A stretch of DNA of 64,000 bases, from the NCBI RefSeq assembly GCF_902832845.1, contig NZ_CADFDB010000002.1, positions 496,001 to 560,000 on the forward strand. The letters run 5' to 3'. The stretch comes from Burkholderia metallica. Its GTDB lineage: Bacteria > Pseudomonadota > Gammaproteobacteria > Burkholderiales > Burkholderiaceae. A model generated the notes under the pieces. The model worked only from the letters and a program-made list of their open reading frames with translations, was not told the origin of the DNA and did no database searches. A program made the translations under genes and the position numbers. Positions 31,632 to 34,959 of the stretch are shown here, piece after piece. Position 1 is the first letter of the stretch. Every line of letters starts with the position of its first letter.

Positions 31632-31961
31632 TCAGCCCTGGTCGTCTCCGGGCCACCAGGTCTTGGCCTCGCGGTCGACGACGAGCGTGTCGAGATCCTT
31701 GCCTTCGAGCCATTTCGGCCGCGGGCCGCGGCCCGACCAGGAACGGCCGGTCGTCGGATCGTAATACTTGGCCGGCGCCTTGCGTTTTCGCTGAACGATA
31801 TAGCCCAGCGCGCTCAGCACTTCCTGCTGCGAAATTCCCAAAAGCTCGACCTGTTCCTTGAATGCCGCGAGCGCGGCCTGCTTCTCCTTCTGCTTCGCAT
31901 CCGACAGCTTGATATTCAGGTCCCGAAGTTGTGCTTCGAGTTCCTGCAGGGCCTGGGTCAT
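31632..31961 (-). CDS. H-NS family nucleoid-associated protein
   Basis: 109 residues. The N-terminal half is a coiled coil (LEAQLRDLNIKLSDAKQKEK) for oligomerisation; the C-terminal part carries the H-NS DNA-binding core YYDPTTGRSWSGRGPRPKWL with the minor-groove loop in SGRGPRP, close to the canonical Q/R-GR. AGAGGAT before the ATG at 31961 decides the start over an ATG seven codons upstream. Burkholderia carry several such paralogues, often near accessory DNA they silence. It lies downstream of the reverse transcriptase gene. Confidence 0.9.
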   Translation of the reverse strand: MTQALQELEAQLRDLNIKLSDAKQKEKQAALAAFKEQVELLGISQQEVLSALGYIVQRKRKAPAKYYDPTTGRSWSGRGPRPKWLEGKDLDTLVVDREAKTWWPGDDQG

Positions 31962-32288
31962 GTATTCATCCTCTTTGGGCATGTTTTCGCAAAAAGCTCC
32001 GATGGCGGAACCTACCACGAAGTTCCGCCGATAGGGGCTGGCAAATATATGAATCGTTTGCCCGAGCCGGCATGGCTTGCGCAATACGCACTAAACGACG
32101 TCGCGCGTCAATCAATGACGGACAGGAGCGGGCCGGCAACGCGCAGCCCGCCCGGTGCGAAGGCGCGGCGAACGGCTGCGGCAAACAAGCGCCGCCCCTG
32201 GCACGGGCGCGGCATGGCGCGAATGATAGCAGTGCTCGGCGTCGTATTGCAGAAGTCGACGGCCCGCGTCGATGCGACCCCGGAACGC
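31962..32288. other. gene-free stretch upstream of the H-NS-like gene
   Basis: About 330 bases between the reverse transcriptase stop and the H-NS-like start. Sequence at 31980-32060 is AT-richer and probably carries the H-NS promoter. No gene supported. Confidence 0.4.
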
Positions 32289-33638
32289 TTACCGGCCGGT
32301 GTCGGACGCGTCCCACGCGATCCGGTCGAACAGCGCGCGCAGCCTCGCGCCGCGCGCCGCGTTCAGCGCGGCCGCATGCGCGACGCGTCCGGCGAGATGC
32401 GCACGGAAGTCCGGATGCGCATCGCGATTCTGCGACGCCGGGCCGCACCGGATGCAGTTGGTCAGGATGGCCTTCAGGAGATCGAACTCATCGCGCGCCA
32501 GGTTCGGGTGACGATTGACGACCACGCCGGCCAGTTGCTGGCGCACGCCGCGCCGCATCACGCGCGTCTTGCGCAGTTGCAGCGCGAAGCCTTCCTCGAG
32601 CGCGATCGCGGCAACCCGCACCTGCAGCCGCTCGACGTCGCGCGTCAGCGCACCGTCGCCGGAAAACGCGAGATCGTCGGCATAGCGCGTGTAGGTTGCC
32701 CCGAGCGAACGCGCGAGCGCGGCGAGCCGCAGGTCGAACCGGAACGCGCTCAGGTTCGCCAGCGCCGGCGACGTCGGCGCGCCCTGCGGCAGATGCCGCT
32801 CGCGATACCGCTGGCGGCCGATCCAGTCGAACCGGTCGCGCAGGTCCGGCGCGAGCAGCCGCGCGGACGGCACGCGGTTGGTACACAGGCCGGTGAGCGT
32901 GCGCGCGACTTCGGCCGGATACCCGAGCGTGACGAACAGCGCATGCACGCGTGCAGCGCGTATCGATACGAAGAAATCCGCGAGATCGAAACGGACGACG
33001 ACGTCGCGATCCGCATGCGGCGCCGCGAACGACACGATGCCATGCCCCTTGCGAAAGCCGTGTACCGCACCGTGCGGCGCGATGCGATCGAGCAGCCCGT
33101 GCAGGATGCGGCGCTGCGCTTCGCGCAGCCGGCCTTTCGGAATTTCGACGAGGCGGCTGCCGCCGCTGCGCTTGTCGTGCGCGACGTACGTGTAGTGATG
33201 CAGCGGCGTGGCGCTGCTGCGCGCGCCGACGCGCCAGTGGTCGGACAGCCAGTCGAGTTCGGGCGCGCTCACGCCGAGCCAGCCGGCAAGGTCGCCGGGC
33301 GTCGCCCACTGCGGCACGTCGCAGCCGGCGAGCGGCGCCGGTAGCGGCCGCTGGACGGGCGGGCGCCGCACGACGCGGATCACGGTCGGCCGATCCTCGC
33401 GATACCAGGCGCGCACGAACGCGGCCGCGTCGGCCAGAACCGCCGCAAGCGCGTCGATGTCGACGTCGTCCCAGTTTGCGCCGAAGCGGGCGAGCGCGGC
33501 GTCCGCACATTCGTGCGCCCACGGCTTCGCGTCGCCGAGTACAGCGGCCATACGCGCGATGACGCCGCCGCGCTCGGGCGGCCCGGCGAGCATCGCCTCG
33601 GCAATCGTGCGGGTGGTATCGCGCAGGGATGAATGCAT
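32289..33638 (-). CDS. retron-type reverse transcriptase
   Basis: 449 residues. Residues 1-130 are an N-terminal domain of unknown fold. The RT domain follows: KRSGGSRLVEIPKGRLREAQ, the first catalytic Asp at 218 in FDLADFFVSI, LPQGAPTSPALANL, and the YADD box at residues 319-322 inside YTRYADDLAFSG. The region where retron RTs have VTG-hhVN reads LAGVVVN, a variant. The start at 33638 (MHSSLRD) is chosen because the longer frame to 33749 would overlap the structured leader; no strong ribosome site is seen. No integrase or maturase domain is present, so it is not a group II intron. Probably an antiphage retron RT. Confidence 0.85.
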   Translation of the reverse strand: MHSSLRDTTRTIAEAMLAGPPERGGVIARMAAVLGDAKPWAHECADAALARFGANWDDVDIDALAAVLADAAAFVRAWYREDRPTVIRVVRRPPVQRPLPAPLAGCDVPQWATPGDLAGWLGVSAPELDWLSDHWRVGARSSATPLHHYTYVAHDKRSGGSRLVEIPKGRLREAQRRILHGLLDRIAPHGAVHGFRKGHGIVSFAAPHADRDVVVRFDLADFFVSIRAARVHALFVTLGYPAEVARTLTGLCTNRVPSARLLAPDLRDRFDWIGRQRYRERHLPQGAPTSPALANLSAFRFDLRLAALARSLGATYTRYADDLAFSGDGALTRDVERLQVRVAAIALEEGFALQLRKTRVMRRGVRQQLAGVVVNRHPNLARDEFDLLKAILTNCIRCGPASQNRDAHPDFRAHLAGRVAHAAALNAARGARLRALFDRIAWDASDTGR

Positions 33639-33649
33639 GGAGAAAGATG

Positions 33650-33822
33650 GGCGGGACGATGAGCCAACGTGACCGGTACTGCGAGGGGTGGCGTTACGCA
33701 ACGCGCAACCCGGCCCCTTGCGACGCATCGGGGTGTCGATCTGACCCACGGGGTAGCCCCGTAGTCCCGGAACATCGGCTGCCTGTTCCGGGCGTGTGCT
33801 TGACCCACCGGCCCGCGATGCG
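33650..33822 (-). ncRNA. structured leader, candidate retron msr-msd RNA
   Basis: Read on the minus strand towards the RT gene, this leader has a possible flanking pair CGCATCG (33822-33816) with CGATGCG (33730-33724). Between them are two perfect hairpins: CCCGGAACA/TGTTCCGGG (33792-33784 with 33774-33766, nine-base loop) and ACGGGG/CCCCGT (33762-33757 with 33753-33748, three-base loop). A third stem, GTTGCGC/GCGTAAC (33709-33693), follows. GTGGGTCA occurs twice. Retron ncRNAs have this place and style, but msr and msd boundaries and the branching G cannot be assigned by eye. Confidence 0.45.
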
Positions 33823-33824
33823 AC

Positions 33825-33852
33825 TTTAATGGGCGCGAATGCGGCGTGTCAA
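33825..33852 (-). promoter_or_regulatory. candidate promoter of the RT leader
   Basis: On the minus strand TTGACA (33852-33847), a consensus -35 box, is followed after 16 bases by ATTAAA (33830-33825), a weak -10. The predicted transcript would begin close to the first structured element of the leader. Confidence 0.45.
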
Positions 33853-33996: not shown

Positions 33997-34959
33997 CTAA
34001 AGCCCCTGCGGCGCATCGCGCAGCACGGCACGCAGCGCGCTGTCGAACGGCGTCGCGTGATCGATCCCGGCCGCACGCAAGCGCGATGCATCCAGATGGC
34101 AATCGTACGGACGCGGCGTCGCGTCGGTCGGCTGGTCGATCCGCGTGAGCTTGGCTTCGATGCCGAGCGCGACCGCGATCCGCTGCGCGATGTCGTACTT
34201 CGTCATCGGTTCTTCACCCGACCAGTGGCGAAGGCCCGTGATCGACGCGCCCTCGAGATGCCGCAGCGTCAGGTCGCGGATGACCTCCGCGACGTCCGGC
34301 GTATACGTCGGGTAGCGGATCGCCCATGCGTCCATGCCGACCGCGTCGGCGCCCGGCTGCGCGGACGCGACGATCGCCGGCACGAGGCTCGTGACGGCCG
34401 ATTCGCTCCAGTCGACGATCGGGCCGTAGAGCAGCGGCAGGCGCAGCACGCACGACAGCGGCGACGCGGCGAGGAGCGCCGCCTCGCCCTCCAGCTTCGT
34501 GCGACCGTAGATGTTCAGCGGAATCGGCGCGTCGTCCTCGCGGTACGGGGCCACGTTGCCGTCGAAGACGTAGTCGGTGGAGATGCCGAGCGTCCACGCG
34601 CCGTGGCGCGCGGCGAGCGCGCCGATGCGGGCCGGCGCGGTGACGTTGATCGCGCGTGCGCCGGCAGGATCGCGTTCGCAGACGTCCGGGCGGCGCTCGG
34701 CCGCACAGACGATCACGGCGGCCGGGCGGCGGGTGGCGAACAAGTGGTCGAGGGCCGGCTCGTCGAGGACGTCGAGTTCGGCGATGTTCTCCGGGGGCAG
34801 CGCGATGCGTTTTGCGCCTGCGCGTTGCGGGTTGCGGATCGTCGCGACGAGATTCAACGATTCGCGGGCCAGCGACGCGGCAACCGCGCGGCCGAGGAGG
34901 CCGGCGGCGCCGATGAGGAGAACGGTCGGGTGATCGGTGGACGTGGTCGGGTTCGGCAT
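33997..34959 (-). CDS. RmlD-like SDR family sugar nucleotide/NAD(P) reductase
   Basis: 320 residues, extended SDR of the dTDP-4-dehydrorhamnose reductase (RmlD) type. N-terminal Rossmann motif LLIGAAGLLGRAVAASLA; STDYVFDGNVAPYREDD and the catalytic Tyr/Lys in PLNIYGRTKLEGE are intact, and PYDCHLDASRLRAAG closes it. It stands alone without rhamnose genes, as do many family members similar to the eukaryotic MAT2B subunit. Substrate unknown. No clear ribosome site before the ATG at 34959. Confidence 0.85.
   Translation of the reverse strand: MPNPTTSTDHPTVLLIGAAGLLGRAVAASLARESLNLVATIRNPQRAGAKRIALPPENIAELDVLDEPALDHLFATRRPAAVIVCAAERRPDVCERDPAGARAINVTAPARIGALAARHGAWTLGISTDYVFDGNVAPYREDDAPIPLNIYGRTKLEGEAALLAASPLSCVLRLPLLYGPIVDWSESAVTSLVPAIVASAQPGADAVGMDAWAIRYPTYTPDVAEVIRDLTLRHLEGASITGLRHWSGEEPMTKYDIAQRIAVALGIEAKLTRIDQPTDATPRPYDCHLDASRLRAAGIDHATPFDSALRAVLRDAPQGL

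Follow-up and report, generated by a model that had tools for sequence, protein, structure and literature searches.

The locus described here raises the question of whether a reverse transcriptase (RT) gene and the structured leader in front of it make up a retron, and of how such a retron would act with no recognised effector gene alongside. Retrons are typically made of an RT, an ncRNA and a toxic effector, according to excerpts of PMC12548924, and some have no effector gene clearly associated with them, according to excerpts of PMC8867640. We have analyzed a stretch of 64,000 nucleotides (hereafter, the window) corresponding to positions 496001-560000 of contig C2 in the 7.55 Mb genome of Burkholderia metallica (G000). 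The initial annotation had read the locus as a candidate undescribed retron with a YADD-box RT, and the gene is indeed present as an open reading frame of 449 amino acids (32289-33638, minus strand, ATG start) in which both the YADD box and LPQGAPTSPALAN were found. Our analysis covers the architecture of the RNA and how it is inherited together with the RT, as well as the family to which the RT belongs, the fold predicted for it and the selection acting on it. The features needed to follow the analysis are these:

33847-33852, minus strand: TTGACA, presumed -35 box of a putative promoter, present in 49 of the 50 homologous leaders compared
33824-33829, minus strand: TTAAAG of the presumed promoter, at a spacing of 17 nt from TTGACA; transcription would be expected to start at about a1
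33651-33818, minus strand: msr-msd ncRNA as modelled (covariance model R1, 167 positions; RNA of 168 nt), from fold, covariation and homologues
33800-33816, minus strand: a1, 5' arm of the closing stem, pairing with a2
33651-33667, minus strand: a2, 3' arm of the closing stem, placed by covariation
33799, minus strand: predicted priming (branching) G, immediately following a1 and contained in CAAGC, which is invariant in 50 of 50 leaders
33766-33792, minus strand: msr hairpin A, 9 bp in the window (33792-33784 with 33774-33766)
33746-33764, minus strand: msr hairpin B, with the core ACGGGGCTACCCCGT, 8 bp (33764-33757 with 33753-33746)
33681-33721, minus strand: msd stem-loop, outer stem 33721-33714/33688-33681, inner stem 33708-33703/33699-33694
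33321-33638, minus strand: N-terminal extension of the RT, residues 1-106, with five helices within residues 5-78
31632-31961, minus strand: H-NS-family gene (Histone_HNS, 2.7e-9), not part of the retron, persisting without it
33997-34956, minus strand: RmlD-family reductase gene (RmlD_sub_bind, 4.4e-57), not part of the retron, persisting without it

The two best PADLOC profiles for the RT, matched over nearly the full length, were retron RT_other (2e-144) and RT_outgroup (2e-136), names that carry neither a retron type nor an effector. The same two profiles came out on top in all six distant relatives scanned. The third one, retron RT_XIII (1.8e-89), lies about 180 bits under RT_other. When the predicted fold was used in Foldseek, the 18 best structures were retron RTs, and the best sequence match among solved structures was the RT of the Ec86 retron. 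By profile and by fold, then, the nearest proteins are retron RTs, as the initial annotation had supposed. Pfam recognised RVT_1 alone, and the scores with the NCBIfam models for retrons and for group II introns were under their cut-offs. The gene is under purifying selection. Regions X and Y of retron RTs carry the residues NAxxH and VTG; at the presumed places of these regions we found FAAPH and LAG, the family consensus being AxPH and LAG. Among the best 80 of 530 relatives, the closest RT from a named species was that of B. aenigmatica, with 90% identity. A second retron-type RT was detected in the same genome (contig C4, 281054-281869; L003 and L002), in two pieces within a frame of 396 amino acids, with RT_V and RT_VI as the best PADLOC profiles of the pieces.

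Folded as a single sequence, the leader already looks like that of a retron, with a 16-bp closing stem (a1/a2) around two hairpins and a long stem-loop. The free energy was -87.1 kcal/mol (z -2.53) and 2 of 200 shuffled sequences were as stable; the evidence from covariation, given below, is far stronger than that from fold stability. Several of these elements had been noticed before. The hairpin described as having a 9-base stem stands (hairpin A), while the one given as 6-base has six Watson-Crick pairs and two more, that is, 8 bp (hairpin B). A third stem with one wobble pair corresponds to the inner msd stem, and the TTGACA box is present at 33852-33847. The branching G and the msd, which had not been seen clearly, can now be placed at 33799 and in the stem 33721-33681. 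The flanking pair CGCATCG/CGATGCG that had been suggested can be read in the sequence, but it does not correspond to a1/a2: one base (33816) is shared with the true a1, 83.4% of its cells were paired, one of its pairs is broken in 22 of 50 sequences, and the number of its pairs changed on both sides (two) was matched by 177 of 500 shuffles. In favour of this rejected pairing were the cells paired and the cells changed on both sides, each reached by 1 of 500 shuffles, together with the covariation score, reached by 5 of 500.

Covariation was evaluated in 50 leaders, belonging to the loci with an RT match that reaches the N-terminus. L046, L047 and L050, in which the match begins after residue 20, and the fragment L056 were left out of the alignment; L053, L054 and L055 (RT in pieces or shortened) and L038 (stop codon in the RT) were used as leaders only. 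Over the 50 leaders, 96.3% of the cells of the 46-pair structure were paired, a value that fell to 40-44% when the partners were slid. Changes on both sides were found in 16 of the 46 pairs, against 6.2 ± 1.4 in the shuffles, none of which (0/500) was as high. In the a1/a2 stem 4 of the 16 pairs had changed in this way. Hairpin B had 100% of its cells paired, and the lowest pairing was that of hairpin A (85.5%), with one pair mismatched in 44 of the 50 leaders. RNAalifold, applied to the same leaders, recovered the closing stem, hairpin B and the msd stem (37 pairs, 11 of them changed on both sides) and did not recover hairpin A. The mean column identity of the leaders was 85%, although the RTs of the most distant rows are only 40-57% identical to that of the window; 5' of the promoter the DNA soon becomes unalignable, as judged by eye. 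The same structured leader is thus kept in front of homologous RT genes, a point on which the initial annotation had made its retron reading hang. We also observed that a well-conserved msr-msd leader persists before the broken or shortened RT genes of L053, L054 and L055.

A subset of 32 leaders out of the 50 served to build the covariance model R1, which was searched in the loci of the best 80 of 530 relatives, picked by protein similarity alone. A match 5' of the RT and on the same strand was found in 78 of these 80; in the other two (L085 and L102) the contigs begin inside the RT. The positive relatives among these best 80 span six phyla, and the weakest scores were 24.1 bits (L125) and 24.2 bits (L084, from Myxococcus). 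The sole other match at E 0.01 or lower in the same loci was on the opposite strand of the leader of L063 (27.0 bits), and the best one away from the leaders had 16.4 bits (E 0.46). The short gaps between RNA and RT in the distant loci arise partly by construction, since the RT was made to begin at whichever start codon came first after the RNA match.

Because four of the 11 Burkholderia and Paraburkholderia loci (L059, L060, L061 and L107) share contigs with members of the model, a more independent set was obtained by taking these 11 from the 78, the two leaderless loci having been excluded beforehand. In the resulting 67 distant leaders, still from the best 80 of 530 relatives, 94.4% of the cells were paired and 43 of the 46 pairs had changed on both sides, figures that lean towards the structure because the leaders were aligned by fitting them to R1. 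Under the same model-fitted alignment, all 16 pairs of a1/a2 had changed on both sides, hairpin B had 98.7% of its cells paired, and the cells changed on both sides were 785, against 220 in the shuffles and 82-123 when slid. The base after a1 was G in 64 of these 67 leaders, the other three having gaps; the G was preceded by A in 60/67 and followed by C in 40/67. As a control, R1 was run on 80 viral-contig loci with more distant RTs (at most 36% identity), which are RT homologues and not confirmed retron RTs (one of them, L232, with only 138 bases before the RT), and gave no matches, even at E 10.

R1 occurs once in its own genome and, under stricter filters, in one other genome among 185 drawn from the class. 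By DNA similarity the leader was also found in three Burkholderia records of a plasmid collection (84-86%). Neither the RNA nor the window matched any Rfam family at its gathering score, and three weak matches at the leader or next to it (CRISPR-DR20, RsmW and radC) were far below the cut-offs and were taken as chance. In the literature on Burkholderia retrons, at the level of titles and abstract openings and outside the catalogues of Mestre 2020 and Khan 2024, we found no description of the element. The word "undescribed" in the initial annotation holds only in part, since the RT family is present in PADLOC-DB as retron; the element is a new member within an already listed retron RT family (PADLOC outgroup/other).

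At E 1e-60 or better, the RT was detected in 44 of 65 Burkholderia genomes, counting its own; across the family, at E 1e-40, it is present in 39 of 299 genomes, distributed over 4 of 25 genera and with a few fragments among them. At the first threshold 21 of the 65 Burkholderia genomes do not have it, which indicates that the RT is dispensable. In 11 of these 21 rmlD could be detected, and in 7 of the 11 it is adjacent to hns, at 308-615 bp (the retron-empty sites L145 and L147-L152). Two of these sites, L147 and L148, show a relic that resembles the last RT codons (in L148 non-significant as protein, E 3.0, and 2e-6 as DNA), and in G058 (L056) the middle of the RT has been lost. The retron seems to be old in the genus and to have been lost more than once.

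Set A4 comprised the window and 71 of the 78 loci, leaving out three near-copies (L058, L059 and L107) and four loci with short or doubtful frames (L101, L104, L114 and L133); A6 comprised 52 of the 72 in A4. On the RT tree the six phyla require 14 label changes, compared with 40.1 after shuffling and a possible minimum of 5, which suggests that descent prevails and that exchange, duplication or mis-binning accounts for the rest; metagenome bins make up many of the distant loci. A phage origin was rejected: no close relative was found, no phage record covered 80% of the RT and the viral contigs reached at most 36% identity. A plasmid origin was rejected too, the six matches in the plasmid collection being three Burkholderia replicons of 0.9-1.3 Mb (89-90% identity) and three from Tsukamurella, Methylobacterium and Dietzia (40-47%). 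The Myxococcus genome G323 has four places matching the RT (L140, L141, L143 and L144), and R1 at E 0.001 or lower recognises one of the four leaders.

Seven neighbours were read in the window (the H-NS-family and RmlD-family genes, DoxX, DHDPS, two MFS and one ORF without a Pfam match), and none of them had a PADLOC match. Among 54 RT-bearing loci, many of them with flanks of 1.5 kb only, hns was found in 36, rmlD in 15 and neither in 16. We rejected hns and rmlD as effectors because they adjoin each other in the retron-free sites mentioned above (7/11), and are therefore neighbours independent of the retron. Five of the seven retron-free sites keep a stretch of 30-51 bp (88-97% conserved) corresponding to 32190-32240 of the window, 5' of the H-NS-like gene, and the remaining two have it within a more extended match of 69%; this stretch is perhaps a control region of hns.

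Within 1.5 kb, no neighbour (ORFs of at least 70 aa) is shared by more than five of the 69 distant loci taken from the best 80 of 530 relatives. The largest cluster (5/69) was all from Planctomycetota, and extending the flanks to 4.5 kb the largest one covered six distant loci. Seven of the eight largest clusters in these relatives are found only in Planctomycetota, and the eighth (3 loci) in Planctomycetota and Verrucomicrobiota. In the related planctomycetes L103, L109, L110 and L134 a membrane-like ORF of 191-277 aa lies 3' of the RT on the same strand, and could possibly be a lineage-specific partner. Overall, neither an effector gene nor a fused effector domain was found at the locus using Pfam and PADLOC for the neighbours and sequence searches for the N-terminus. 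By sequence, the N-terminal extension had no convincing known domain in Pfam or among PDB sequences: the best E value of the profile search was 0.11, and the search against Pfam gave nine families with one member each (best E 0.0023). R29 is the sole charged residue of this part conserved at 60% or more. A built-in enzyme was rejected given the lack of a convincing profile match and of conserved catalytic-looking residues, which speaks against it. The N-terminal part evolves fast (dN/dS 0.35), as would suit a role in conflict.

We consider that the element is almost certainly a retron, since homologues have structured leaders and the RT is closest to retron RTs, in agreement with the initial reading, and that it probably makes msDNA (we would put this at roughly 0.85). 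For transcription, priming and the DNA product the argument comes from known retrons. A promoter at 33852-33824 would drive a single transcript, with the msr-msd RNA first and the RT message behind it. The a1 and a2 ends would pair, the RT would bind the RNA, and the 2'-OH of G33799 would prime synthesis. Copying of the msd would run from 33668 to an end between about 33721 and 33745, with a predicted product of 54-78 nt of DNA joined 2'-5' to the msr RNA. Against a retron with a DNA product count the weak R1 scores of some relatives, the AAGC tetramer, the presence of C after the priming G in only 40 of 67 distant leaders, the FAAPH/LAG residues, the absence of an effector at the locus and the dispensability of the RT in Burkholderia. 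Could the leader instead act as the structured 5' UTR, or as an attenuator, of an RT gene that does something else, with no DNA made? GC-rich DNA folds well and the z value was only -2.53, but a closing stem, the G following it and a covarying msd stem are what a retron needs and not what an attenuator does, and the RT is closest to those of retrons; we regard this as very improbable. Still less credible is a remnant of a group II intron or of a DGR. YADD RTs also occur in both families, yet model TIGR04416 gave 32.8 bits against a cut-off of 300, RVT_1 is the only Pfam domain, and Rfam recognised no family in the window at gathering score.

The function of the retron is far less certain than its nature as a retron with a DNA product. 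An antiphage role, which the initial annotation had taken as likely, is no more than a possibility, with no effector gene common to the family and no PADLOC match among the seven neighbours. Most likely an RT-msDNA particle would guard the cell, with the N-terminal helical domain of the RT, or a partner elsewhere, replacing the effector. We would extend this only tentatively to an effector-less, two-part class of retrons across six phyla, kept mostly by descent, in which msDNA and RT would be both sensor and actor through the fast-evolving N-terminal helical domain; equally tentative is that such a class is defined by its own msr-msd family, with a GGGG-short loop-CCCC hairpin and the priming G directly after a1. 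About as doubtful is that the same retron works with an ordinary effector gene located elsewhere in the genome. A toxic effector is typical of retrons in the excerpts of PMC12548924 and none was recognised next door or shared, but a partner separated in all six phyla would be unusual, and the distant loci have no widely recurring neighbour. Somewhat less probable again is that msDNA and RT are kept by descent for a task unrelated to defence, such as gene regulation or DNA repair. This would agree with the frequency of hns alongside (36/54), with the lack of close relatives in viral contigs or phage records, with a tree that mostly tracks the phyla (14 changes against 40.1) and with seven neighbours devoid of PADLOC matches. 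However, several Burkholderia have lost the retron from the same place, its surroundings vary (rmlD in only 15/54), three plasmid records of other genera have RTs of 40-47% identity, and the fast evolution of the N-terminus would suit a role in conflict.

Retrons of the oldest-known sort, which have an extended N-terminus and are not known to have an effector, have no assigned function. For a group built in this way, this analysis provides a full predicted RNA and a covariance model with a clean control. The relatives in six phyla offer a choice of tractable hosts, the natural deletion sites can serve as controls, and the N-terminal domain is a specific candidate for the missing effector part. 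Our results suggest that inspection of neighbour genes alone will not reveal the mode of action of this group of retrons.

Among the known systems, Ec86 (Eco1) is a retron of type II-A. Its RT is 25% identical to the one described here, with the match starting at residue 92 of the model; the differences are some 90 additional N-terminal residues in our RT and no recognised effector gene alongside. Mx162-like retrons are not known to have an effector. The relative L084, from Myxococcus, has an RT 48% identical to that of the window. The excerpts of PMC6868368 describe an extended RT N-terminus, as found here, in the myxobacterial Mxa1 (Mx162), Sau1 (Sa163), Mxa2 (Mx65) and Nex2 (Ne144), and, in the cases of Mx162 and Sa163, inheritance by descent inside the host group, also as here. 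According to the same excerpts, the closing stem of retrons includes the priming G or stops just 5' of it, and this G lies within a conserved AGC (mostly TAGC, sometimes CAGA, CAGC, GAGC or ACGC). In Mx162-type retrons the G is within AGC, as it is here, although our tetramer, AAGC, is not among the five given in those excerpts. Mx162 makes a DNA of 162 nt from a transcript of 241 nt (excerpts of PMC6868368), whereas here an RNA of 168 nt is modelled and a DNA of 54-78 nt is predicted. Set beside them by their published descriptions, this retron resembles the myxobacterial retrons with extended N-termini.
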